A DNA stretch of 21,666 bases from a virus. Positions 7,246 to 21,624 of the stretch are shown here, piece after piece. How positions within the stretch are numbered: the first letter of the stretch is position 1; every line of letters starts with the position of its first letter. Below the pieces are notes generated by a model that did no database searches, was not told the origin of the DNA, and saw only the letters and a list, made by a program, of their open reading frames with translations. The DNA lies in IMG/VR virus record IMGVR_UViG_3300007345_000335, positions 1-21,666 of that record; one strand, 5' to 3'. A program made the position numbers and the translations under genes.

Positions 7246-7527
7246 TTAGGATATATCCTTCTTTCTGGCTTTGGCCTCTGGCTTTTTAATTGATCCCTGT
7301 TTCCCCCCTGTAACAAGGGGGGTTATTTTTCTAACACATCCAATAGGCATAACAGTAAACCCAAACCATTCACCTTTCTCATCTTTGGTCGTGGCAATAC
7401 GGACTTCTTCATGGTCATGATTAATTAAATATCCATACGACCAAAAGATTGGCATTGTTGTTTCTTCAGACTTTTCCCACCCGGCAGTTGATATTATATC
7501 AACCCACTCTACTTCAACGTAGTTCAT
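7246..7527 (-). CDS. 93-residue phage protein of unknown function at the end of the structural operon
   Basis: The start codon overlaps the stop of the giant protein gene by four bases (ATGA), so it is the last cistron of the leftward operon. The protein shows EVEWVDIIS, GWEKSEE, then SYGYLINHDHEEVRIATTKDE, FGFTVMPIGCVRKITPL and a basic tail (KKPEAKARKK). The pattern V-x-W-x-D..W..S.G.L....V.IA......MPIG.V..I is typical of a widespread small phage protein family predicted to be a small beta-barrel, with no assigned function. No signal peptide or membrane segment is seen, so it is not an obvious holin. A terminator hairpin for the opposite strand is embedded in its C-terminal codons. A role as partner of the giant protein is possible but unsupported. 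Confidence 0.7.
   Translation of the reverse strand: MNYVEVEWVDIISTAGWEKSEETTMPIFWSYGYLINHDHEEVRIATTKDEKGEWFGFTVMPIGCVRKITPLVTGGKQGSIKKPEAKARKKDIS
7303..7330 (+). terminator. Intrinsic terminator for the + strand replication operon
   Basis: Six C (7303-7308) pair with six G (7317-7322), extended by one T-A pair around a loop of about six bases, and TTATTTTT follows. The T-run lies on the + strand side only, so the element stops rightward transcription. It sits about 80 bases past the last + gene, inside the 3' coding end of the opposing 93-residue gene. Confidence 0.8.
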
Positions 7528-10500
7528 AAAGGAACCTTGCTTGCTGCTTCAGACCACTTTTGTAATTCAAGATACTTCTGAGAAGCAAGCAGTCTATACT
7601 CATCATAAAGATCTTGCCTCTTTGCTGGACTAAGATTAGGATCTTGTAATACTTTGTAAGCCCTAGAAATAATATCATCTATCTCTCGCTGCTTCCAGTA
7701 GTATTTGTTCTGCATTTCATAAGGTCCAATCTTAATGGTATTTATACCAAACCAAGACAAAGCAGCATCTACTGAACCGTACTTTGCAAGACCATCCTTT
7801 CCTATATTTCCTTCAATAAGATCTGCAACCGCCGCAGATTTCCACAAAGGACCGCCCCCTGCAGATATATCACCAGACTTGTTTCTAGGAAGAATCATAG
7901 GTGGAAGCATATAAGAAGCCATAAACATCATAATGTCTTGGGCCTGTTGTGAAGTAGGATCAGACTCATTCCATATCTCTTGCCCAGTAAATGGATCAAT
8001 GTTCTGCATACCGCTTATCAATCCTTGAACAGGACCGCCAAAGATTCCAACAGTTTTCCAAGCCTCGCCAAGCTCCCCCTTAGCAATGTCCTTCATCATT
8101 GAGTAGTGAGCTCCCCAAGGCAGGAAATAACTCATGTCAAACGCAACCCATTTTCCGTTATCATCCTTGTATGGCAAGAAGAATACATTCATATTTCCTT
8201 CGGCATACTCAGGAACAAACTTCTTCAATGCCTCTAACTCTTCATCATCAATGTCATCAAACTGCGCCATAAACATCTCTGCCATCAGGTAAGGCAATGC
8301 AATAAACTTTAAGTTTGCTACAGGATGATCTTTAATATTTCTCATTATCTGAGTTAGAGCCTTGGCATTAAATGTGATAAACGGAGAGCCAAGAGGCATA
8401 GACCTTAAAGTTCTAAGCAAAGGAGAAACATTACCGTAATCAAGAAGTGCTTCGTTTGCTTTAATAGCTGCTTCTGCCTCTGAAAGACCAAGCCTTTCTA
8501 CCCCATCAATAAGCTTTGCTATCTTAAACAGTACCTCTGTTTTTTGATACATCCTACCAAAGACATTAAACTGATCCATTGCTAATTTAGTTTTAGCAAA
8601 GAACCCAGTCATTCCATCCTCATCTTTTTGCAATTGGGCAAGTTGTTTGTCAATACTTCCTAGTTCTTCAGAAGAAAATGTTGTAGTCTCAATGCCATAC
8701 TTTCTAGCAAGTTCCATGTACTTGCCGTTATTAATTATTTCATTAAGAGATTTGCTAATTAAATTAGGTATCCTATGAATCGGAACTCCAGAACTGTTCA
8801 AAAGAGTAAGGTTTGATATTGCGTTCCTTGACTGAGCAGGAATTTGCATTGGAACGTGAGTATACTTAAATGTTTTTTGAGCCTTAGATGCAAACCTAAG
8901 CACACTATTTAAAACCTCGTTCTGAGAGCTAATAATACCCTGCTGAACTATATCATCCCATATTCTTTTATCAAGATACAGTCCTCTCATCGCGCCATAC
9001 CTAACAGAGTTAGGAACTTTCTTATACTTCTTCGTATCTACATTAGCTATTTCTGGGCGTTTAGCAATCTCGCTGTCTATTCTTCTGGCAAAAGCTTCAG
9101 TTGCATTTGCATCAGCCGCTTGTCCTTTTGATCTAAGAATAGCAGCCCTTTGTTTCATTCCATCTGAAAGCTCTTTGAAATAAAATGTAGAACCTGTTAC
9201 TCCATCAATCTCCATAATCTGATTAGGAATAACCCAACCGTTAGTTAATGGAGCGCTAGCAATAAAGTTAAGCAGATCAATTGTTGCTAGGTCTGTTCCA
9301 GCCATTGTGATATATCTAGACGCAAGATAAGCTGGATCTTTTATTCGACCAGATATAAGTCCTTGTATAACAGATTCCTCATCCTTTCTGGCTCTAGTAT
9401 ATCCCATACTTCCAGTCATAAACCCACTTCCAATTTTATCCTGACCTTTCATAACAAACTCAAGATAAACTCTTGGCAGGTACTTGCCTCGCAAACCCTC
9501 AAACTGATCTCTATCTAAAACTCCAGCATTTACAAGCCTTTCTCCAAGATCCTCTATCATTCTCTTAGCTCTAACAGCTCCCTCTCTGACAGTCATCTTC
9601 GCTTCGTTCTTTGGTCCGGGCCTAGTCCCCCTTAGCACAGATTCAAATGGAGCGTATGATATTTTTTTGTTTGAAATGCGATCAGGAGATGCGTCCCTAG
9701 TCTCAAAGAATTCTTGCAAGGCTCTTTTTTCTGCAGGAGTTTTAGCATTTCTAAGAACGTCATTTAAAACTCTTCCAAGATTTGCATACTTTTCCTTCTC
9801 ACCCTTCATCAACATCCTTGCTTCTTCTAGAACTTTATACTCATTAACAGTCATCAAAGGCTCAATGTATTTCTGAATAGCCTTGAATGAACTTTGCATA
9901 ATACTTCTGCCTTTCTCAGCAGCCTGAGTATTTTGCACTGCATCTCCTATGATTCTTTTACCTCTGCTTTCAAATATACTAACAGCTTTGTCATCATAAA
10001 GAATAGCCTGCTCACTTTTAAATTGGCCGTCATTTAAAAGAATGTAGCTACTAGATCCATAATCTTCTTTTTCATTTGTATATTTAATTGAGTCGTAGCC
10101 GTCTTCTAATAAAATATTCCTTACCTTTTTGGCAAAAGATTTTCTTTGTGCTTCTGATACAGTTGTTGAAAGTTTTTTCTCGCCCTTGGCAATAGAATAA
10201 GCAACCTCTAATATTTTATTAAGGGTATCATTTTCGCTAGCATCTTCTAAAAGTACCTCTCTAATCCAAGCAAACGGATTATCAAATGCTCCCAAGTCTG
10301 CCATCTCTAAAGGATTTTTAATACTTGCATAGCCAGAGTACATAACTTCTTGATCGCTTCTAGGCAGGAATTGACCTTCAGCTATAGACTCTAATCTTTC
10401 TGCAGCTGCTTGCCTAGTACCAACGTGAAGACCAAGCTCAGTTTTTTCAAAAACTGGAGCAGTAAAGTTAACTAAAGATCCATGATAAACAATATCTTTT

Positions 10501-13500
10501 ACCTTTGAATCTTTTAAAAATTTGTTTCTTCTTATAACTGCAAGACGATCTTTTGCTGCTCCCTCATAAGTTCTTAAAGCATGAGCTGGAACTCTTCCTA
10601 CAGAATACTGAACAAGAGAAACAATATCATCAACGGATACTTCTGGTTTTGCATTTGGATCAAAAGGTTTTAATATCTTTGCAAAGAATCTATTAAAGGC
10701 TTTTGTAATTTTATTCCACAAAGATGGCTTTATATCGGCAGCTTTAAACTGAATAACATGAGCAAGAACCTCCTCCCAGAATGAAGAGTTGTCTTCATTT
10801 CTTACCCACCGATCAAACTCTCCAATGTTTCTTGCAGGAGCGCCAATCTTTAATTCAGATAAAGGTATTCTCTTGCCATAGTAATTATCAAGAACAGCAT
10901 TTACTGCATCAACAACTACCTCATCTCCAGTCCTATGCAGTTTATATATCTGGTCTAGTACCTGAGCAAACTCTCTATCAGATAAAATATTTTTACCGTA
11001 ATGAACTCCAAGCTCATGTAATATTAAGCCTCTAACATCGTTTGTATTATTAGCTATGTTGTCGATAATAAATACAACACTTCCGTTTTGAGCATCAACA
11101 AAAGCATTAGTTTCTTTCTTGATATTCTTGTATCTTTGAGAAGAAGATACGACTTGGTTGTAAGTCATCAGCTTTATAAAGCCAATATCAATCATTCGCT
11201 TAGTAGCTTTGCTTCCCCAGATGTCATTCATCTCTGACATTAAGGCGTTGCTTGCAAGAACTGGAGATTCAAATCCTTTTTCTGGCGCTGCAGATCTTGA
11301 CTCTTTTATGTTAGAGTCACCCCAACCAAGGTCATCATCATCAACTATAAAGTTAGATTCATCTTCTATGTAAGATGTATCAATCTCTTGGTCTGAGTTA
11401 AGCCATTCAGTTATAGCAAGAACATATGTAGACTTGCTAGGCTTTTTCTTTTTATCCCTATAATCAACGCCTTCTTTTGATTTAAAGAATTTATCTGGGT
11501 ATAATTGGAAAGAACTTTCCTGAGACTCTATAGATTCGGCAAGCTTTTTAAGGTCGCCAAGAGACATGCCACCATTTTTCTTGGTGTTGTTTAGTGTTAG
11601 AAGTACTGTATCTTTTTCTCCTGACTCCCACATATCCATCATCACTGTGTAGTCATCGAGAAACTGATCAGAAAGAGATTGAATATCTTCTACTACATCT
11701 TTTTCTTCAGCAAAGACTTCAGCTATTTCTTTTTTTTTTAACTCATCAACTCTTGCTGCAGCGTCTAATATTTCTGCGTCATCTGTTTCGCTGTATCTAT
11801 CTTTTAAGAAAAGCTCCTCTTCTTCTGCCTCTTCACGCTGAGCATCTGCTTCACTTGATTTTATCGCTTTGGAAGCAACATCTGCAACATCTTCGCCAGC
11901 AATATTACCTATAAATGCAGAATCTAGTACACCCTTATCAAGCAAAAGCTCAAACCAATCTTGCAATGATTCATCTGGATTTGATGGAACCATAGCGTAT
12001 TTAATCTGTGGTTTTGATTGAAGATTTTTAATCTCTTTTTTGGCGTCAGCTATTGTAGCTTTCTGCTCACTAGTAAGAGGCTTCTTATCTTTCTTGCTCT
12101 TATCATTGATACGATCAATTCTTCTCTGTGCTGCCAATATTTCATTGGCATTATCTACAACATCAACAGGAGCAAGAACCGCCTTGTCGTTTTCTATCTG
12201 ACTAGTAATGTAATCATAGAATAAAAACGGCTGTTGTTGAACAGAATCTGAGATCCTTCTGGCATCATTAAGATCAGCAGCACTAAAGTAAACAATCTCT
12301 ATTCCCTTTCCTTTGTATTGAACTGCAACGTCGTACCCAGCCGAAGACATTCTTTCGGAAAGATGGTAGTTTGTTTTTACGCTTGGAACAATATCCCTCT
12401 TGTCTTTACTATTCTTATCTCCAGATTTTCCGGGAATAGTCTGAGGAATCCTTGCTCTTCCAGCAAACTTACCAATGCCTTGATCTTTGGCCTCAGCCAA
12501 AATTGCTGCTTTTCTTTCTTCAGCGGAAGACACTTTTGCTTCCTGCTTTGAAGTTATAATAGCAGATCTTTTTCTTGCGCGAGATATCCTTGATGCTTCT
12601 CTCTCAGCGGCAGTAGATTCTTTTGAAGCCTTATCAACTCTTCGCTGGTAAATCTTGTCAAGCTCTTCCTGAGTTGCTCGATTAAGCATATTACTAGCAT
12701 TAAGTCGATTTGTACTTGCCTTGAATGGCTCTCCATCCACATAGGTTTGGTAAGGTTTTCCTTTCTCAAGAGGGTTATTTAATTTCTTAATCTCTCCCAT
12801 CTTGCCCGGAATATTAGGAAGTTCCTGTGGGGTAGAGTACTTCCTCTTACTTTCCTTTGGCTCTTCTACCTGCTTACCTTTGGAAGGCTTCTTACCTTGA
12901 AGTTTTGAAAGCTCAGCATTAAGATTAGTCAGTTTTGTCTGGCCTGTATTTAATACAGTCCTGTTTGCAGCGTACCTTCTTGCCTGCTCTAAATAATTAT
13001 CAGCAAATTTGCTAAGCCGGGAATCGTTTCTAATTACATCAGCTCTTTTCTGAATAGCTTTGTTTACTACAAAATTCTGAGCAGTTACGTCTGCAATGGC
13101 TTTCTTTTCAATTTCAATTAAAACCTTTTGCTCGTCTATCTCCTTCTGTAGATTAGCTATCTTTTGCTTATCTGCTCCAGATTTTAGCTTGCTTTTTTGT
13201 GCGTCAGATCCAAATCTACTGATTGCAGCATTTTTTACAGAATCTAGAGATCCAGTAAATTCAACGGTCTCCCCTCGATAAGTAACATTGTACACATTCT
13301 CTGCATCAGTTGATCTAATCGTAGTAGGATATCCATTTAGAGTACCAGAGATAGCCCCATCTTTCTTCTCTCTCCATACAACAGCTCTATCTTTCTGTCG
13401 TTTAGATGGTTCTTTAGTAGGCTCAGCCTCTTGTTCAATCTCTGGTTTAGCCTTTGGTTCAGCTGCTTTTTCTTCTGCCTTTTTTGTCTCCCTTTTATCC

Positions 13501-15950
13501 TCTGTTGTTTTCTTCTTCTCAGGCTTAACAGGGGCCTCCTCAGCAGCTTTTTTAGGTTTAGTTGGGGGTGGGGTAGCACCCTCCTCTGTCTCCTCTTGAG
13601 CGGCCTCTGGTTTCGTCTCAGGAGCAGGCGCAGGTTTGGTAGTTGCTTTAACCTTGGGCTCTGCTGCAGCACGCTCTCTTGCATCTGCTTCGCGCTCAGC
13701 CCTAAGATCTTTGATTCTGCTGTCTACTTCTTTTCTAAATAAGCTTCTAGCTTCCGGACCAAGCTCTCTCCCAACGGACTCAGCCTCTGACTCAGACATT
13801 GCTTTGATGGTTCTAATAGGAGTATCGTCATCCACATTTAAATATGGAGTAATGAATCTGTAAGCCCTATCTTCTGCCTCCAGCTTGTTAATCTCGACTT
13901 GTCTTGCTTGGGATTCTGCCTCACGAGCAGCTTGACGATCATCAATTTCACGCCTAGTACGCTCCTGTTCTGCTTGTTGTTTGGCAGCGTCGGCTTGCTC
14001 AGCCTCCATTCTTGCAAGTCTTTCTTGCTCAAAAGCTCTCAAGTCTTCCAATGTTGGAGAAGGTGAGGCTTCTGGAATTCCCTGCGCTCTACGTCTTGCT
14101 CTCTCCTGTGCTGCCCTAGCCTCATTAAGCATGTCAACATCTTGCGCTGTTTCTGGTACGCCCTGAGCCTTACGCCTCGCCCTTTGCACCGCCTCACCAC
14201 CAACTTCAACATCTGCATTGGTAAGAGTAGTTGGACCAAGACCAGTTTTAATTACTGGTTCTTCAGACTTAGCCCCTTCATCTGCACGTCGTCTTATTTC
14301 TTCAGTAAGAGCAATGTCTTCTTCAGTTGCAGCAGCAGCCCTAGCACGCTCTTGTGCTCTCTGCTCTCCCGCAATGGTAGGCATCTCAACTCCACGGGCC
14401 TGATCAATTCTTGCTTGCTCTTCGGCTCTTCGCTGCCTGCCTTGCTCAAGAATTCTGGACATTCTTGGCATCAAAGGCTCTGGCTGTGGGGCAGCTTGAG
14501 GCATATCGTATTCGCCTTCTATTGGCTGCTCTCCTACAAATACACCTGAAGCATCATCTCTGCGAGGAAGTATTTCTGGCATAGAAGTTTGAGCGTCTAC
14601 ATCTACTTCTTCACCAGCTTGTCCAGCTGCTTCAAGCCCAGCATCTGCTCGTTCTGCAATAGTTCTTGATGTTTCTTCCTCAAGAGTTGGCTCAGTTCTT
14701 CCTCCGCCTATTTCAATGGTAAGCTTTCCATCTTTAATAGTAACGCCCGGAGGTAGATTATTTGGATCAACATTTTCCAATATGCCAAATGCAGGAACCT
14801 CTATCTGAGAAGGTCCCCCTTCTACAGGAGTAACAATATTTCCTTCTTGATCCCTTACTCCCTCTCCCTCTTGTGTTGGAGTGGTGTCTACATCAACCTC
14901 TTCTCCTAACTGGCCAGCAGTTTCTGGAGTTTCAACAACGTCAGGAGAAACGGTTGGGTAAGCAACATTAAGCTTCGTCAAGTTCTTTGCGTTCTTGACC
15001 TTTTTTATCTCACGATTAATTCTTATCTTTGCAATTCTATTTGGAGCGTTTTCTAGTTCCTGCTCCAGAGTTGCAACAATCTCATCCTTTCTTGTTTCTA
15101 ATGCTCTTTTAGCTGACTGTCTATTTGAGTGTTGAACTGCTTGACCGGTAACGGTAAAGCCAGTAGTTCCAAGACCGCCAAGAACTTCCAAGAAAGCTTG
15201 CTTGCCAATGTCCTCAGCAGTAAGCTTAGCGTCAGTTCCTATCTTAGTAAGAATTTCCTCTGATGCTCCGCCTGCAGCCTCCCATCCAAGATCTCTCTTA
15301 ATGGCATTTAATGAAACCTTTAAAAGGCCTGCATCTGCAAGTTTTTTAGATGGCGCAAGAAATGGCAATCGCTCAGCAGCAACGTTTATAACAGCGCTAG
15401 TAGCTGCAGCGGCAACATCTAAAGGGCTCGCCTCATTATTTGTAAGGCCCTTATTCGCCATTCTTTCATTAAGCGTTCTTTCTGTCTCAGAAACAAGAAG
15501 AGGAGCGCCCATTGCTGGAATAGCAGAAAGCAAGTACGCGGCAGCGTTAGGAAATTGGTCTCTTACAAAAAGCAATGAGGGCATAAAGTCCCCATTCTTT
15601 AGACCCTCAAATACTTCATCACCAGTTACTTTGATACGATCAGATTCTGTTGCTTTTGATACACCCATCAAAATATCTTGGGCAGTCCTAAAAATAGAAG
15701 CGCCAGTTGACTGCCAATCAGAATCATCAGCGTCATCATCTATCCACTCAAACACAGTTCCAGCAGCGCCGGATAGATTGCCAACAATAGATGAAAGAGT
15801 AGATACAAAATCACCAGCAGCCCCAGTAAACGTCCAATCACTTGAAGAAGCAGCAGTCTCCGTAGGTTGCGACACAGCGCTAGGAGATTGAGGTCTGTAG
15901 GTGTCTGTGATACTACCTAGTAAAGCTTGTACATCTGGTTGAGTAGCCAT
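7524..15950 (-). CDS. Giant 2808-residue polyvalent/ejection protein with zincin-like, ADP-ribosyltransferase-like and LPD38-like regions
   Basis: Seen in order: an Ala/Gly-rich N-terminus with hydrophobic segments (about 125-290); a long Glu/Arg/Lys/Ala/Pro linker (about 300-900) with repeated motifs, then more charged coiled-coil sequence. A metallopeptidase-like helix LHELGVHYG has His1645, Glu1646 and His1650, with WEEVLAH at 1725 as candidate third ligand. An ADP-ribosyltransferase-like unit (about 1815-1995) begins IVYHGSL with His1823 and ends GYDSIKYTN...EDYGSSSYILL. The C-terminal part carries MPLGSPFITFNAKAL (near 2515), the LPD38-type signature of phage polyvalent proteins. Such proteins are thought to be packaged and delivered with DNA to act on host targets; virion location is inferred from the operon. 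AAGGA lies six bases before the ATG, which overlaps the upstream stop. Catalytic activity is unproven. Confidence 0.8.
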   Translation of the reverse strand: MATQPDVQALLGSITDTYRPQSPSAVSQPTETAASSSDWTFTGAAGDFVSTLSSIVGNLSGAAGTVFEWIDDDADDSDWQSTGASIFRTAQDILMGVSKATESDRIKVTGDEVFEGLKNGDFMPSLLFVRDQFPNAAAYLLSAIPAMGAPLLVSETERTLNERMANKGLTNNEASPLDVAAAATSAVINVAAERLPFLAPSKKLADAGLLKVSLNAIKRDLGWEAAGGASEEILTKIGTDAKLTAEDIGKQAFLEVLGGLGTTGFTVTGQAVQHSNRQSAKRALETRKDEIVATLEQELENAPNRIAKIRINREIKKVKNAKNLTKLNVAYPTVSPDVVETPETAGQLGEEVDVDTTPTQEGEGVRDQEGNIVTPVEGGPSQIEVPAFGILENVDPNNLPPGVTIKDGKLTIEIGGGRTEPTLEEETSRTIAERADAGLEAAGQAGEEVDVDAQTSMPEILPRRDDASGVFVGEQPIEGEYDMPQAAPQPEPLMPRMSRILEQGRQRRAEEQARIDQARGVEMPTIAGEQRAQERARAAAATEEDIALTEEIRRRADEGAKSEEPVIKTGLGPTTLTNADVEVGGEAVQRARRKAQGVPETAQDVDMLNEARAAQERARRRAQGIPEASPSPTLEDLRAFEQERLARMEAEQADAAKQQAEQERTRREIDDRQAAREAESQARQVEINKLEAEDRAYRFITPYLNVDDDTPIRTIKAMSESEAESVGRELGPEARSLFRKEVDSRIKDLRAEREADARERAAAEPKVKATTKPAPAPETKPEAAQEETEEGATPPPTKPKKAAEEAPVKPEKKKTTEDKRETKKAEEKAAEPKAKPEIEQEAEPTKEPSKRQKDRAVVWREKKDGAISGTLNGYPTTIRSTDAENVYNVTYRGETVEFTGSLDSVKNAAISRFGSDAQKSKLKSGADKQKIANLQKEIDEQKVLIEIEKKAIADVTAQNFVVNKAIQKRADVIRNDSRLSKFADNYLEQARRYAANRTVLNTGQTKLTNLNAELSKLQGKKPSKGKQVEEPKESKRKYSTPQELPNIPGKMGEIKKLNNPLEKGKPYQTYVDGEPFKASTNRLNASNMLNRATQEELDKIYQRRVDKASKESTAAEREASRISRARKRSAIITSKQEAKVSSAEERKAAILAEAKDQGIGKFAGRARIPQTIPGKSGDKNSKDKRDIVPSVKTNYHLSERMSSAGYDVAVQYKGKGIEIVYFSAADLNDARRISDSVQQQPFLFYDYITSQIENDKAVLAPVDVVDNANEILAAQRRIDRINDKSKKDKKPLTSEQKATIADAKKEIKNLQSKPQIKYAMVPSNPDESLQDWFELLLDKGVLDSAFIGNIAGEDVADVASKAIKSSEADAQREEAEEEELFLKDRYSETDDAEILDAAARVDELKKKEIAEVFAEEKDVVEDIQSLSDQFLDDYTVMMDMWESGEKDTVLLTLNNTKKNGGMSLGDLKKLAESIESQESSFQLYPDKFFKSKEGVDYRDKKKKPSKSTYVLAITEWLNSDQEIDTSYIEDESNFIVDDDDLGWGDSNIKESRSAAPEKGFESPVLASNALMSEMNDIWGSKATKRMIDIGFIKLMTYNQVVSSSQRYKNIKKETNAFVDAQNGSVVFIIDNIANNTNDVRGLILHELGVHYGKNILSDREFAQVLDQIYKLHRTGDEVVVDAVNAVLDNYYGKRIPLSELKIGAPARNIGEFDRWVRNEDNSSFWEEVLAHVIQFKAADIKPSLWNKITKAFNRFFAKILKPFDPNAKPEVSVDDIVSLVQYSVGRVPAHALRTYEGAAKDRLAVIRRNKFLKDSKVKDIVYHGSLVNFTAPVFEKTELGLHVGTRQAAAERLESIAEGQFLPRSDQEVMYSGYASIKNPLEMADLGAFDNPFAWIREVLLEDASENDTLNKILEVAYSIAKGEKKLSTTVSEAQRKSFAKKVRNILLEDGYDSIKYTNEKEDYGSSSYILLNDGQFKSEQAILYDDKAVSIFESRGKRIIGDAVQNTQAAEKGRSIMQSSFKAIQKYIEPLMTVNEYKVLEEARMLMKGEKEKYANLGRVLNDVLRNAKTPAEKRALQEFFETRDASPDRISNKKISYAPFESVLRGTRPGPKNEAKMTVREGAVRAKRMIEDLGERLVNAGVLDRDQFEGLRGKYLPRVYLEFVMKGQDKIGSGFMTGSMGYTRARKDEESVIQGLISGRIKDPAYLASRYITMAGTDLATIDLLNFIASAPLTNGWVIPNQIMEIDGVTGSTFYFKELSDGMKQRAAILRSKGQAADANATEAFARRIDSEIAKRPEIANVDTKKYKKVPNSVRYGAMRGLYLDKRIWDDIVQQGIISSQNEVLNSVLRFASKAQKTFKYTHVPMQIPAQSRNAISNLTLLNSSGVPIHRIPNLISKSLNEIINNGKYMELARKYGIETTTFSSEELGSIDKQLAQLQKDEDGMTGFFAKTKLAMDQFNVFGRMYQKTEVLFKIAKLIDGVERLGLSEAEAAIKANEALLDYGNVSPLLRTLRSMPLGSPFITFNAKALTQIMRNIKDHPVANLKFIALPYLMAEMFMAQFDDIDDEELEALKKFVPEYAEGNMNVFFLPYKDDNGKWVAFDMSYFLPWGAHYSMMKDIAKGELGEAWKTVGIFGGPVQGLISGMQNIDPFTGQEIWNESDPTSQQAQDIMMFMASYMLPPMILPRNKSGDISAGGGPLWKSAAVADLIEGNIGKDGLAKYGSVDAALSWFGINTIKIGPYEMQNKYYWKQREIDDIISRAYKVLQDPNLSPAKRQDLYDEYRLLASQKYLELQKWSEAASKVPL

Positions 15951-17386
15951 TAATATTCCTTCAATACTTCGTTGATTAAGCCGCCGCCTGTTCTGACTTT
16001 GTTACCATATTTATCAACTGTATCTCCGGGTTTAGATGTTTTTGAAGCGCCCATACCCCTAAAGATATTGGCAAACCTTTTTTGAAACTCTGCATTGCTG
16101 ATCTGTCCTTTTAAGAACTGAGTAATTCCAGCATCTTCTGCTGCTAGCGCAATCAGCTGGTCTTGGAATGTTTTATTAAATACGATATTATCTAATTGAT
16201 CAGCTGTCATGCCAAGATATTTTTCTGCAATTGGTCTAATAAATACGCCATATTTAAACTGACCAACACCAACAGCCTTGTCTCCGTATTTTTCTCTGAT
16301 CTGTTTAATAGTCATGTTTGTTAACTCAGAGTCCCCCTTCGTACTACCTGCAACAGCGTTGTATCCATTAACATTAGATTCGGCAGCTTTAACAAGAGGT
16401 GCAAGCTCCCTAATAAGTCCTGATTTTTTAATCTCAATATCTTCAGATTCTTTTGGTATGTTTGTTGGGTACACGTCTACGGAGCCCATTTCCATAACAT
16501 TTGGATCATTCCAAGGTTGCTGAGAAAGCCTGTAGTTAACAGCTTCCTCGCTAAAAGGATCTTCAAAGGTAACAGTTTCTGATGCTGGTTCAGTAGTAGC
16601 AATACTGCTTCCACCCAACAGACCACCCTCCATCATCAGTTGCTCTGCTTGTCCTACATCACCTTCAAATATAGTTCCCTCTGGTGTACCGCTACCTATT
16701 AAACTACCGATTCTTCCTTCTAATGCTTCCTCTCCTCCGGCAATTGCAATAATTGCCTCTTTTATTTCTTGTTTAATATCGTCAGGAAGAGATTTAATAA
16801 TGCCGTCAGCAATCTTTATCACTTCATCTTTTGCTAATTTACCCAATGGGCTGTTAAAAAATTCTTCAGCGGTTTCTTTTGCTGCTGCAACAGCATCTCT
16901 CTGCATCTGTTCTTTGTTAATACCACCGGGAGGAGTTTTGTAACTATCCCCTTTAAACAATGCATCAGGAGTGTCAGATTTTTTTATTGCATTTAAACTC
17001 GCTACTGCCTCAAGAGCTTTCTCAGCTGCCTCAGCAGCTTGTTGTCTTGTAACATTTGAAGAACCAATATAAAAAGCACCTAAGATTGCTTGAGCATCAT
17101 CAATAGAGGCTAACGTAGTTAGCACTTGTTGTTTTGTTTGAGGATCAAGAGATCCTTTCATTGGATCAGTCTCTAATAATTTTATCCAGTCACTAGATTT
17201 TTTTCCTAATTGCTCATACAAAAATTTGTATTTATCTTCCTGTCTAATTAGAGCAGCGCTTTCAATACCAGCTTGATATCTTTCTTCTTCTTTTAAAGCG
17301 GCTTCTTTTGCTGCCACAACAGGGGCAATTTCTTGCATTCCAGTGCCAACTGCACTTAACAAACCTCCCAACTTTTTAATTGCCAT
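15950..17386 (-). CDS. Internal virion protein with C-terminal lytic-transglycosylase-like (lysozyme-fold) domain
   Basis: 478 residues. The N-terminal part is a long Ala/Glu/Lys-rich helical region typical of ejected internal proteins. The last 150 residues look like a muralytic domain: LVKAAESNVNGYNAVAG with candidate catalytic Glu336, then LTNMTIKQIREKYG, AVGVGQFKYGVF with the Gly-Gln-Phe at 375-377, and an EKYLGMTADQLDN...FQDQLIALA tail. This E...G-Q-F/Y order is that of SLT/lysozyme-like virion hydrolases. Podophages place such an activity in an ejection protein to pass peptidoglycan during DNA entry (compare T7 gp16). GGAGG lies six bases before the ATG. The gene lies between small internal proteins and the giant protein, with an 11-base overlap upstream and a TAATG overlap downstream. 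Confidence 0.72.
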   Translation of the reverse strand: MAIKKLGGLLSAVGTGMQEIAPVVAAKEAALKEEERYQAGIESAALIRQEDKYKFLYEQLGKKSSDWIKLLETDPMKGSLDPQTKQQVLTTLASIDDAQAILGAFYIGSSNVTRQQAAEAAEKALEAVASLNAIKKSDTPDALFKGDSYKTPPGGINKEQMQRDAVAAAKETAEEFFNSPLGKLAKDEVIKIADGIIKSLPDDIKQEIKEAIIAIAGGEEALEGRIGSLIGSGTPEGTIFEGDVGQAEQLMMEGGLLGGSSIATTEPASETVTFEDPFSEEAVNYRLSQQPWNDPNVMEMGSVDVYPTNIPKESEDIEIKKSGLIRELAPLVKAAESNVNGYNAVAGSTKGDSELTNMTIKQIREKYGDKAVGVGQFKYGVFIRPIAEKYLGMTADQLDNIVFNKTFQDQLIALAAEDAGITQFLKGQISNAEFQKRFANIFRGMGASKTSKPGDTVDKYGNKVRTGGGLINEVLKEY

Positions 17387-17924
17387 CAGTTGCCTCCATT
17401 GGGGCTAGCATTCCGCCAGCTGGTTGAGGTTGTGGCACTCCGCCAAGCGCTCCGGTAAGCATGTTCATTAAAGATTCCTCTGTAACTTGAGGATCATTTG
17501 ACTCAACTGCTGCATTGATTGCATATGTTAAAGCTTCTCCTGCAAAAGCCTGTTCTTTCTGCTCGTTTGCAAAATCAATAACACCCTTGCTTTCGGCTAA
17601 ATCCATAATCTCATGAACAATCTCAGCCATAATTTCAATTTCAATACCGCGATCAATATCGTTACCATCCTCCTCTTCAAGAGCAATCTCATTAGTAACT
17701 AAGTTACCAGCAACTTCTCCTAATTTTTGAGCGCTTCCATTGCTAATCTGCTGAAGAATGTCCGCTACTCCATCAGAGTAAATGTAATCAACAATTTTTA
17801 ATACAACACCTCTAGCTTGTGCAACTTCTTGCTCTGATGCTTCTTCGATAGCAGGATCTTGATCACCTGATTCAACAGGGGATCCTGTAGGCATTGGCAT
17901 TGCTCTTGCTTGATCTTTAACCAT
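17376..17924 (-). CDS. Putative internal virion protein, acidic, unknown function
   Basis: 182 residues, strongly acidic. A flexible N-terminus (AMPMPTGSPVESGDQDP) leads into helical sequence (residues about 30-150) and a Gly/Pro/Met-rich C-terminus (GGVPQPQPAGGM). There are no catalytic motifs, signal peptide or membrane helix. AAGGA lies seven bases before the ATG. Its position between a membrane-segment protein and the transglycosylase-domain protein, in the run of genes behind the tail hub, suggests a virion or ejection component, as in other podophages where this block encodes internal proteins. No specific family is recognised, so the role is inferred from position. Confidence 0.55.
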   Translation of the reverse strand: MVKDQARAMPMPTGSPVESGDQDPAIEEASEQEVAQARGVVLKIVDYIYSDGVADILQQISNGSAQKLGEVAGNLVTNEIALEEEDGNDIDRGIEIEIMAEIVHEIMDLAESKGVIDFANEQKEQAFAGEALTYAINAAVESNDPQVTEESLMNMLTGALGGVPQPQPAGGMLAPMEATDGN

Positions 17925-17933
17925 ATTAATTCC

Positions 17934-18617
17934 TTAAGATAAAAGTCCACCACCACCAGTAGGAGGAGATGGCATTCTAGGTGGAGTGTATCCTTGCTCA
18001 GTAGTAACCCCTTCAGCATTTGCAACAGTAGGGCTGGTAAAGCCCATATAAGTTCCAGACAAAGCGTTTGCCCTATTTTTAGCTGCAAGTTCAGCCATTG
18101 CTATTTCTTCTTTAATTCTTAATTCTTCGTAATCAAATTCAAGTTGAGCTTCAAAATTTTGTTGGCTAAAATCTTCATCATCAGAAAGAAGATTCCCAGC
18201 TACCTCAAGGGCTTTTCCTCCAATGTAAAGATCCATTGAATCCATTCCTTTTATTTTTCCAAAAGTCCAAGACGCAGCTTTGCTAACTCCATCAAATATA
18301 GAGCCAAGACTGAATGAATCGGAACCAACGCCAGGTACAGATGGTGAAGTTTTGTAAGCATCTCCCATGTAAGTTGCAATAGTATTTGCAGCAGACTTAC
18401 CACCAAAACCAAATAAAGATTTAAGGCCCTTTAAAAAACCGCCGCCACCGGCAGATGAAGTTCCACCAAAAGCCCCAACTCCAGCAGCAAGAGCAGCTGT
18501 TGCTACAATAGCTGGAACAATCTTTTTCATCCTGCTTTTCTTTTTAGGAGTAACAGCTAATCTTGACAAGCCTGTTTCCCTATCAATTCCTACTGTTTTA
18601 ATCTTTGTCATTGCCAT
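17934..18617 (-). CDS. Putative internal virion protein with one membrane-like helix
   Basis: 227 residues. A basic stretch (TPKKKSRMKK, 24-32) precedes a hydrophobic Ala/Val/Gly-rich segment at about 33-50, followed by Gly/Ser-rich and Phe/Gly-rich sequence (GGGGFLKGLKSLFGFGG) and a later charged coiled-coil (residues about 150-190, FEAQLEFDYEELRIKEEIAM). A small protein with an amphipathic or hydrophobic N-terminal region plus a coiled coil, encoded with other internal proteins, fits a component that enters the host envelope during DNA ejection. That is inference from context. An alternative Met at residue 3 exists. The gene follows the upstream stop by two bases. Confidence 0.55.
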   Translation of the reverse strand: MAMTKIKTVGIDRETGLSRLAVTPKKKSRMKKIVPAIVATAALAAGVGAFGGTSSAGGGGFLKGLKSLFGFGGKSAANTIATYMGDAYKTSPSVPGVGSDSFSLGSIFDGVSKAASWTFGKIKGMDSMDLYIGGKALEVAGNLLSDDEDFSQQNFEAQLEFDYEELRIKEEIAMAELAAKNRANALSGTYMGFTSPTVANAEGVTTEQGYTPPRMPSPPTGGGGLLS

Positions 18618-18619
18618 AA

Positions 18620-19684
18620 TTAATAAAACTCCGGAGGAGTAACACTTCCTATCGCAGCCTCAGCAGCTCCAGCACTCATTCCGGGTTGAGTTGCAATAGA
18701 TGTTCTAGCATTAAGAACTGCTCTCCAATTTGCAGATCTTTCCGCTAACTGACGAAGAGACATGTCAATACTTCCCTGAAGTTTAGACAAGAAAGATTTA
18801 TAGTATGCTTCGTTTTGAGCAGCTTTAAATTCATTACTATAGTTTTGATTAGCTAATCTTTGTTGCATAAAAGCATCAGCATCCCTTTGTGCAATAGGAA
18901 CAGCTACAGATAAGATTGCGTTCATAACAGCCTCTTCCGCAATCGAACTATTAAACAACCCCCTAGCAGCCATAGACTGTAATGCTTTGGTACTAGCGGC
19001 TCTAAACAATGGGTTGTTTTTGTTGATAAGAGATTTAAGTCTATTCTCTAAAACTTCTGAGCTTGCGCCTTCTTGTACAATTTCTTCTAGATCAGGAAGC
19101 TGTAATTTAGATGTATCAATTGTTGCATCTCTAATTTCTGCAGCATAATCTGTACCGCCAGAAGCAACAGATGCTGTAGGTGGCGGTGGCGGAGGAGGCG
19201 GCGAAGCAGATTTACTACCACCAGAAGATCCTCCTCCTGTTGTAGTTGTTGGTTCTATTTCTACTTTAGGTGTTTCTGCTTTAGGAGTAGAAGCTGGTTT
19301 TATAATTCCATAACCCGGTACTGGATAAAGATCTCCCTCTGCACTTCCATAAGGAACTGGAACTGTAGGAGCTCCAACATATCCAGCACTTAAACCTTTG
19401 CTAACATGTACATATTTTTCTTCCCCACCTTCACCGCCAGAAGTTCTAATTTTTTTAAATCCAGAAGCTTTTAAAGCTGCTTCTTTTTCTCTAAGCTCCT
19501 TAAGTCTTGCCATATCAGCTGCGTAGTCTGCACCGCCACCATCAGCCTCTAATCTAGGCAATCCTTGAGGAGTAATTTTAGCATCAGGCGAACCTTTAAC
19601 AGCGTCTCGCCGTCTTAAAAGTTTACGCTCTTCATTAGTAACATAAGCAAGACTTGTCTTGCCACGCTTCATTGGAATGTTCAT
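18620..19684 (-). CDS. Putative virion structural/internal protein with polyproline linker
   Basis: 354 residues in two parts. The first half is basic then Gly/Thr/Ser-rich and low in predicted structure, ending in eight consecutive prolines near residues 162-169. The second half is helical and carries LENRLKSLINKNNPLF, SMAARGLFNSSIAEEAVMNAILSVAVPIAQRDADAF and an Asn/Gln-rich continuation. That R-G-L-x-N-S-S-x-A...A-x-P-I-A-x-x-D-A pattern recurs in phage virion proteins encoded behind the tail hub, so a structural or internal role is likely, though no biochemical function is known to me. The start codon overlaps the hub gene stop (ATGA). The linker and Gly runs suggest a flexible tether between two functional halves. 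Confidence 0.6.
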   Translation of the reverse strand: MNIPMKRGKTSLAYVTNEERKLLRRRDAVKGSPDAKITPQGLPRLEADGGGADYAADMARLKELREKEAALKASGFKKIRTSGGEGGEEKYVHVSKGLSAGYVGAPTVPVPYGSAEGDLYPVPGYGIIKPASTPKAETPKVEIEPTTTTGGGSSGGSKSASPPPPPPPPTASVASGGTDYAAEIRDATIDTSKLQLPDLEEIVQEGASSEVLENRLKSLINKNNPLFRAASTKALQSMAARGLFNSSIAEEAVMNAILSVAVPIAQRDADAFMQQRLANQNYSNEFKAAQNEAYYKSFLSKLQGSIDMSLRQLAERSANWRAVLNARTSIATQPGMSAGAAEAAIGSVTPPEFY

Positions 19685-21624
19685 CGCCTAATTCCTCTTG
19701 GAGAATAGTTTACAACCACGCCCTGTAACGTGATAGGTTTATCGTAAATAGATTCGTTTTTAATTATAAGACTCATGTTGGTACCAATACCATTGATCTT
19801 TAATCTTTCTGTTGCAACAACCGTAATACCAGTGTTATCGTTAGAAATGTCATCTTCGTTCCACTGGTCTGCAGTTACGCCAACAGTATAAGTTGTTGCT
19901 GATGGAGATGTCTTTGGTGTAAAGGTGCCTCCATAATCTAAGCTTGGCTGAACAGTAAGCGTGGTTGCAGTGTCAGCATTTACTTCTAGATTTAAATCTC
20001 TAAATCTTTTCTTTATCTGCGGAGATCCATAGTTATGGTAAGCAGTCCTAATAAAAGATGGTACTGACTGGCCATCAAAGCTAGTACCAGAATCAAGCTT
20101 TCTAACATAACCATCATCAAAACCCCCGTAAAGAACCTCAAACCCATTAGAATCTTCAGCAGAGCAAACAGAAGATATCTGGTGCTTAAAAGTAAATGGC
20201 ATAATACCTTGGTTAGATCTGTTAATATAGGTCATGGCTATGCCAGTCTTATCATCGAAGTACAGTCTGTACTGATTTTTACCCCTTACTCTTACAGATA
20301 AAATAGCGTTTGATTTTTTTTTCTGAATGTATGGATCAATAGAATCTGATGCAACAGCAGACTGAAAATCGCCAAACGCTTGGACAGTAAAGATAGAAGT
20401 GATTCCTCTATCATCCAAGAAAAATGTTTGATCCATCTTTTGGATTGTATACTCAACAGCACCAGTTCCTTGGTGAAACCTTCTTAACTCCCAATCAGCT
20501 GCGGATGAACCATACAACATAAATGTGTTGTTCTTAGTAAATACAGACATTACATCATTAACTTCTGTGGAAAACCCAGTAACAACATCACCAACAGAAA
20601 GCTCTGCAGCGCCTGTTATAGCGCTCCATTTATTTGGAGCACCAATACTAGAGTGTTGAATAGAGCCGCTAGGATAAGAATAAAACAGATGCTTTGTGTG
20701 CGCGTTTACATGTTCTGGAGTGTCAGTATCTGTTCCAGTTTTAATCTTAATAAAAGTGGTGCCATCGTAAGAGAATCCATTGTCTACTCTGTTAACGCCA
20801 TACATTGTAATTCCAGATGAGGCACCTCTGAAATTATAATTAATAAATTCGTATTTACCATTTGGATTAATAGTTTGATCGTAGATCGTTCCGTCTGCTG
20901 TTGCCACAGTTACTTTGCTTGGCTCAGCAGCTCCGTTAACTAGCGCCCTGTTAGTTCCAAGAACTGTAATATTTTCGTTATCAGTCCAAGTTCCAGTATT
21001 ATTTTTAATGGATAAATATCCAGCCGCAGTACCACCAGTCCATGTACCAGAAGATAAAGTGACGCTTGTTACAACGGCTGTTTTACCAGAGGTAGCACCT
21101 GTAATTGTATCTCCAGCAACAATCTCAGATGTACCTGTGTCAAAATTAAGCAACGACATTTGAAGGTCTTCGCCATCAACAAAACCTCCGCTAATGTCAG
21201 TCAATACCATAGTACCTTTAGCGCCAGTTTCCCACAGACCATAGTATGAAATACCAGCAAGGTTGGCAGTGGCCCCGCTAGTTGCTCCAGATATTTCTGT
21301 TGGAGTACCAGTATCTCCGGGAGTTGGCTCTCCAGAAGATGTAGTATTTTCAAAATCTAACGCTTGACCAAGCTCTACTTCAGACCATCCAGTAGATGAC
21401 GACTTATACATGCCAGCAGTTGCGCCACCTGACTTATTTCTAAATGCATAGATATTGCCATTATATACCCATACACCAAGAACAGAACCTTCACCCGGAA
21501 CAATAGTAATAAGGTTCCGTTGGTTCTCAATACGTTCTTGAAGCTCTGGTAAAAGATTTGCGTCCGCGTTCGCATCTCTTAGAACCGGATCGCCATAGGC
21601 ATACGCGCTGGCGTAGATACCCAT
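19681..21624 (-). CDS. Tail hub / packaged-DNA stabilisation protein (P22 gp10-like, beta-propeller type)
   Basis: 647 residues, nearly all beta-strand in character. Conserved-looking blocks include HLFYSYPSGSIQHSSIGAPN, VGDVVTGFSTEVNDVMSVF, the central FFLDDRGITSIFTVQAFGDF followed by DSIDPYIQ, and RLYFDDKTGIAM. This succession of short blades is that of the P22 gp10-type hub/stabilisation protein, or tail-nozzle protein, which plugs the portal-tail channel and keeps packaged DNA in. Residues 111-221 hold two copies of a Gly/Thr-rich module with GATSG-x-TA starts, likely an inserted beta domain on the tail surface. Its ATG overlaps the stop of the upstream gene (TAATG). The gene-level call is good; gp10-like versus T7 gp12-like cannot be fully separated by eye. 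Confidence 0.68.
   Translation of the reverse strand: MGIYASAYAYGDPVLRDANADANLLPELQERIENQRNLITIVPGEGSVLGVWVYNGNIYAFRNKSGGATAGMYKSSSTGWSEVELGQALDFENTTSSGEPTPGDTGTPTEISGATSGATANLAGISYYGLWETGAKGTMVLTDISGGFVDGEDLQMSLLNFDTGTSEIVAGDTITGATSGKTAVVTSVTLSSGTWTGGTAAGYLSIKNNTGTWTDNENITVLGTNRALVNGAAEPSKVTVATADGTIYDQTINPNGKYEFINYNFRGASSGITMYGVNRVDNGFSYDGTTFIKIKTGTDTDTPEHVNAHTKHLFYSYPSGSIQHSSIGAPNKWSAITGAAELSVGDVVTGFSTEVNDVMSVFTKNNTFMLYGSSAADWELRRFHQGTGAVEYTIQKMDQTFFLDDRGITSIFTVQAFGDFQSAVASDSIDPYIQKKKSNAILSVRVRGKNQYRLYFDDKTGIAMTYINRSNQGIMPFTFKHQISSVCSAEDSNGFEVLYGGFDDGYVRKLDSGTSFDGQSVPSFIRTAYHNYGSPQIKKRFRDLNLEVNADTATTLTVQPSLDYGGTFTPKTSPSATTYTVGVTADQWNEDDISNDNTGITVVATERLKINGIGTNMSLIIKNESIYDKPITLQGVVVNYSPRGIRR

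Follow-up and report, generated by a model that had tools for sequence, protein, structure and literature searches.

What does a phage do with a single gene that fills 38.9% of the DNA in which it is found? The stretch analysed, called the window below, is 21,666 nt long, and the gene runs from 7524 to 15950 on the minus strand as a single frame of 2808 codons. A first-pass annotation had recorded its length and its share of nearly 40% of the window, both of which hold; the strand, not given there, is added here. The reading that we favor, at a probability of roughly 0.7, is that the product is an ejection protein packaged in the virion, in which a zincin would process the chain and an ADP-ribosyltransferase (ART) would act on host proteins early in infection.

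Genome Context

The virion operon is transcribed from the minus strand in the order p647 (19681..21624), p354 (18620..19684), p227 (17934..18617), p182 (17376..17924), p478 (15950..17386), the giant gene, and p93 (7246..7527). The product of p647 is homologous to podovirus stabilization/head-closure proteins, namely those of Pseudoalteromonas phage Y3, Vibrio phage 1.232.O and E. coli phage PTXU04, and also matches proteins of Puniceispirillum and Pelagibacter phages; with this gene in the conserved operon, the initial assignment of the giant gene to a virion operon is confirmed. The genes p354, p478 and the small downstream p93 are conserved in the operon, as are p227 and p182, which by position are likely to encode internal virion proteins. 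The stop codon of p478 overlaps the start of the giant gene (TAATG), and the stop of the latter overlaps the start of p93 (ATGA), so that they are coupled. The order from p647 through the giant gene to p93, convergent with phosphoesterase and ribonucleotide reductase (RNR) genes, is kept in relatives with sufficiently long contigs; beyond the subgroup to which the window belongs, identity drops to 27-47% in p227 and p478. A giant gene at the end of the operon is common to N4 gp50, BcepIL02 gp70, DC1 gp67 and podovirus ctwe8250. The T7-type connector family PF12236 matched nothing anywhere, the controls included, and is uninformative.

The C-terminal block of p478, about 170 residues, has a lysozyme-like AES...GxGQFK pattern in which, by eye, the E-S and GxGQFK-like residues are invariant. 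Its N-terminal part varies in length, and the whole protein exceeds 860 residues in two relatives (L034 and L074). Searches of PDB and PHROG lent no support to a lysozyme, which remains a motif resemblance only.

Family matches elsewhere in the window identify a class II RNR (PF02867/PF21995), NinB (PF05772), DUF968 and Rad52. The B12-dependent reductase and Nin-type genes noted at the outset are thus present, but they are ordinary phage genes, and an RNR gene is found close by in ctwe8250 too; the special bearing once given to them falls away. A 177-residue protein encoded at 1021-1551 gives a weak match to the DnaJ-type CxxC zinc finger, and Pseudoalteromonas phage Y3 also has a DnaJ-annotated gene, near its Holliday junction resolvase. 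A strong terminator-like hairpin for the early operon of the plus strand (CCCCCC..GGGGGG followed by a T-run) is found at 7303-7322, within the p93 coding sequence of the opposite strand.

Domain Organization of the Giant Protein

Comparison of the full-length protein with Pfam and PHROG yielded nothing useful, and Pfam scanning was therefore done on pieces; neither single domains nor profiles retrieved a relative from the PDB by sequence. The coordinates that follow are all on the minus strand. An N-terminal domain (residues 1-330; 14961..15950) precedes a charged, low-complexity spacer (residues 330-870; 13341..14963; 37% D/E/K/R, net -35) that is probably coiled or disordered. Residues 870-1559 (11274..13343) are without a family match in the Pfam scan of pieces and, among the relatives, evolve fast between subgroups. 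The motifs picked out in the first-pass annotation lie where it placed them: HELGVH at residues 1645-1650, YHG at 1822-1824 leading to GSSSYI at about 1965-1970, and PFITFNAKAL at 2523-2532.

Relatives of this protein occur on dozens of IMG/VR contigs. Successive scans with the C-terminal half returned 16, 32 and 57 loci, and a scan with the zincin-ART region 66, counts that include several repeats of one contig. A search of annotated phages with the whole protein brought up two records and no more: the match lies in the C-terminus (24%) for MW202615.1 and in the ART (31%) for Rctr197k. Bacterial genomes gave 106 pattern matches and not one true relative, and so provide no clue to a host or prophage. 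Very large single genes are also seen in related or zincin-sharing phages, for example about 3698 codons at L037:1197-12290 and about 4690 codons at L083:290-14359.

The Zincin-Like Domain

Residues 1560-1790 (10581..11273) form one domain in all relatives, characterized by the motif pair HE[LIVM]G[VA]H and EE[VI][LI]A. In the window these are HELGVH (11001..11018), the predicted metal site, and WEEVLAH (residues 1725-1731; 10758..10778), which carries the EExxA motif and the predicted third metal ligand. The first motif is found in 72 of the 75 family ORFs that hold both the zincin and C-terminal domains, a count that takes in redundant loci; HExxH occurs in none. An AlphaFold model of residues 1560-2040 has a mean pLDDT of 76, and 160-167 residues of its zincin part align with the zincin-type fold of Certhrax and the anthrax lethal factor at Z 6.0-6.5, values within the range reachable by unrelated folds and alone not decisive. 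Many other giant phage proteins (1.2-4.7 kaa; L077-L103) that do not have this C-terminus carry a HEVGVHYG version of the module, accompanied in some by LPD37; the motif served as the search pattern there, so that its conservation in that set is partly by construction. The zincin itself is apparently covered by no Pfam model.

The zincin-type region proposed at first therefore stands in its motif pair, its homology to the HExxxH domains of other giant phage proteins and its weak fold match, but its motif is HExxxH and not HExxH. HEXXXH is a known zinc motif, used by DPP III and the TMCP carboxypeptidases (PMC10499314), and Iyer et al. 2017 described a set of polyvalent metallopeptidases with exactly this motif (PMC5512222). 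The window protein has the motif, a further acidic ligand and, by a weak match, the zincin fold, and is a candidate member of that set. From sequence and model, the domain is an HExxxH-type zincin and a predicted metallopeptidase.

The ART Domain

The region at residues 1812-1992 (9975..10517) matches ART-PolyVal (PF18760) over residues 1820-1979 with E=2.7e-4 and 22.1 bits, the gathering cut-off of 31.2 not being reached; the match is likewise weak, and below the cut-off, in 7 of 14 relatives. The predicted fold is more telling. A search of BFVD gave 23 matches at E<=1e-3, the best at 1.2e-8 and several named ART-PolyVal; PARPs and tankyrases align at Z of about 6.6, and the best match of all (Z 8.2, 142 residues) is chain B of the cyanophage A4 pre-ejectosome. 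This chain is A-4L ORF27 (PDB 9k3a chain B), with YHGT...GTYF at 1425-1449, and it places the ART fold in a podovirus protein seen inside the virion. The first-pass annotation had staked its claim on an ART fold in residues 1800-2000, and the family match and the fold matches together bear it out strongly.

The motif GYDS..SYILL of this domain, like GSPFITFN of the C-terminus, is conserved across proteins that are 37-71% identical in the C-terminus. The strand-1 histidine (H1823, within YHG at 10479..10487) is conserved. Iyer et al. 2017 described an H-Y-D triad (strands 1, 2 and 5; ART-PolyVal / Tox-ART-HYD2) with the tyrosine on strand 2 (PMC5512222); at this position the window protein has H (GLHVGT) and the sister L005 group Q (GLQVGT), which makes catalysis uncertain, and the strand-5 acid could not be placed with certainty. 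On sequence and model we regard the region as an ART-PolyVal domain and a candidate transferase.

The C-Terminal Half

Residues 2041-2808 (7527..9830), which include PFITFNAKAL (8355..8384), are the most conserved part of the protein, at 37-71% identity over a divergent set, and are matched by no Pfam family. The LPD38 model (PF18857) matched none of 17 family members; it was also silent in 14 records whose control genomes gave nothing either. LPD38 is found in the C-termini of Bcep22-type phages (PF18857, E 1.4e-36 in BcepIL02), and hhalign aligned the C-terminal half with an alignment of these at a probability of 86.6% (E 4.4e-6, 502 columns). The structural model has a mean pLDDT of 66; in BFVD it aligns over 850-1000 columns with proteins that bear the name LPD38 or large polyvalent protein, with E down to 7e-13 and low TM-scores, and VIA-align returned only a terminal helix pair (model 701-768), which is uninformative. 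The LPD38-like C-terminus claimed earlier thus survives in the profile-profile and fold comparisons with LPD38-bearing proteins, but not in the Pfam model itself. We call this half LPD38-type and not LPD38; the comparisons point to a remote relative of LPD38-bearing phage C-termini.

An LPD38-type C-terminus and the position in the operon are also features of the DarB-like proteins of Bcep22-like phages, and a defence-blunting protein that shields the incoming DNA from restriction would share both. The Pfam scan of the whole protein and of its pieces, however, detected no helicase or methylase domain, and we consider a DarB-type function highly improbable.

Loss and Exchange of Domains

One relative (L022) is devoid of an ART: its zincin and its C-terminus, the latter 71% identical, are only about 90 residues apart. 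The ART is consequently not needed by every relative. The YHG strand is absent from L111 and L074-L076, and L112 and L111 are 96% identical in the C-terminus and only 39% in the zincin.

Replacement within the ART is seen between L104/L105 and L106-L108/L115. Their C-termini are 98-99% identical, the zincins 93-96% and the ends of the ART 74-93%, and the ART middle, some 80 residues between the NPF and GYDS motifs, is 16% identical. The equivalent in the window is the middle helical segment at about residues 1883-1939 (10134..10304). Nucleotide identity in the ART middle is 36-43% over about 240 bases, with flanks of 80-100%, and dS between L104 and L115 is 0.87 in the ART as opposed to 0.09 in the zincin and 0.10 in the C-terminus. 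Since each allele was recovered from at least two separate assemblies, we set aside the idea of an assembly chimera. Clean middle-segment swaps, as counted here, exclude L074/L076, where the length of the middle segment is meaningless, and L111, where the ART is degenerate.

The N-terminus varies as well. In L002, a member of the window's close group, residues 1 to about 330/360 are 69% identical to the window protein, and p478 also differs, as against mostly 97-99% for the rest; in L005 the N-terminal domain (residues 1-330) is 45% identical. The difference in L002 is a single tract over p478 and the N-terminus of the giant protein (about 360 residues), which may point to an interaction of these parts or to their joint exchange.

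Where dS is adequate, dN/dS of the ART is approximately 0.1-0.5, above that of the C-terminus (0.04-0.20); two pairs with very small dS (dN/dS 0.6-1.9) were given no weight. These ratios suggest that the ART is mostly under purifying selection.

They bear on the possibility that the protein is mainly a structural ejection protein, comparable to T7 gp16 or A-4L ORF27, which would form an internal core and trans-envelope channel, with zincin and ART folds that have a part in assembly or survive as relics and do nothing enzymatic to the host. The position after p182-p478 resembles that of podovirus internal-core genes, A-4L ORF27 has its ART fold inside a pre-ejectosome, and the ART triad is imperfect, with the YHG strand missing in L111 and L074-L076. 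Relics would not be expected to look like this, however: the residues of the zincin motif are invariant, and the ART strand motifs are conserved around a replaced middle, with dN/dS mostly below 0.5. We think a mainly structural role unlikely.

Proposed Role in Infection

We propose that the giant polyvalent protein would be made last in the virion operon, enter the capsid, be packed with the DNA and be pushed into the host at infection. Packaging and injection are, by analogy, well supported by operon position and precedent: CsCl-purified virions of phage JC1 yielded 51 unique peptides of its LPD38 protein gp69 (PMC9144972), the ART-bearing A-4L ORF27 belongs to a pre-ejectosome, and the N4 virion RNA polymerase is packaged, its zincin region being needed for encapsidation (PMC5512222). 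The alternative of an unpackaged intracellular late protein acting in assembly, for instance as a protease for virion proteins, would give the zincin other late proteins to process, but it leaves the ART without an obvious place, and both the remote LPD38 relative (JC1 gp69) and the ART-bearing podovirus protein (A-4L ORF27) are in virions; this we hold to be improbable.

In the packaged ejection protein, the conserved LPD38-type C-terminal half may act as a chassis for virion placement or ejection. The HExxxH zincin would most likely cut its own polypeptide, before or after delivery, and free parts of it, as we infer from Iyer et al. and from P1 DdrB. The ART would be the cargo, most likely ADP-ribosylating host proteins at an early stage of infection. 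That relatives have lost or exchanged it fits a host-directed cargo under changing selection, and an ejected chassis carrying exchangeable host-directed cargo is our best reading of the family. The retention of the C-terminal half through exchange or loss of the enzyme domains appears, as far as the search for precedent went, to be a new observation. In a bolder and less likely reading, the protein would be a modular injection vehicle with a fixed LPD38-type chassis. Recombination among podoviruses that circulate together would exchange on it the target-recognition segment of the ART, the ART as a whole, or the ART along with the zincin; if so, the specificity of the injected enzyme would change with the virion unaltered. 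The natural pair that is nearly identical but for its replaced ART middle offers a ready test of recognition by an injected phage ART.

Comparison with Known Systems

The first-pass annotation had suspected that the combination of domains might be undescribed, which is not the case: Iyer et al. 2017 defined the class of polyvalent proteins, with zincins (including an explicit HEXXXH clade), ART and LPD38 in virion operons (PMC5512222). Such proteins join at least two biochemically unrelated domains in one polypeptide, and the giant protein joins a zincin-like domain, an ART and an LPD38-type C-terminus. It is a new family within this already described class. Like the proteins of Iyer et al., it is multi-domain, is encoded in a virion operon and has a zincin metallopeptidase (their list includes the HEXXXH set), an ART and an LPD38-type region; it differs in having no curated Pfam LPD38 match and an ART-PolyVal match under the cut-off, and adds the exchange of the ART middle on a constant C-terminus.

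Phage N4 gp50, the virion RNA polymerase, is likewise encoded by a giant gene that closes the virion operon and faces the early genes; it is packaged, and has a zincin as well as an encapsidation region (PMC5512222). No similarity was detected to residues 2100-3500 of gp50 (the C-terminal 1400), and neither the whole window protein nor its pieces gave an RNA polymerase family match. A-4L ORF27 is a podovirus internal protein whose ART fold was solved inside the virion pre-ejectosome; it lacks HExxH and HExxxH motifs and has no detectable sequence similarity to the window protein, the link being by fold only.

Homology is found with three other systems. BcepIL02 gp70, DC1 gp67 and JC1 gp69, the DarB-like LPD38 proteins of Bcep22-like phages, are also the last large gene of the virion module and are homologous by profile in the C-terminus, but are annotated with transglycosylase, methylase and helicase domains (PMC9144972) instead of an HExxxH zincin and ART. 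The "DNA repair protein" of podovirus ctwe8250 (MW202615.1; UOF79314.1, 2166 aa) is homologous in the C-terminus (hhalign probability 100, E 8.6e-47) and shares an ART-like YHSS...SYILL motif, the last place in the virion operon and the neighboring RNR gene; its peptidase motif, however, is HExxH (HELGH, residue 1056) and follows the ART (about 631-788), the reverse of the order seen here. Gp25 of Escherichia phage PTXU04 (QBQ76639.1, 2197 aa) has a homologous HExxxH zincin (HEIIVH...EEVLA; hhalign probability 93, E 4.2e-7), is encoded by a large gene near the end of a virion operon and is accompanied by a p647 homologue; no YHG-type ART motif was found in it, and its C-terminus alone is not recognized by the profile of the window family. 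These comparisons place a widespread family of uncultured podoviruses within the polyvalent-protein class and tie its parts to phages tractable in the laboratory, the zincin to E. coli phage PTXU04 and the C-terminus to the Bcep22-like phages, and, by fold, to the virion structure of cyanophage A4.
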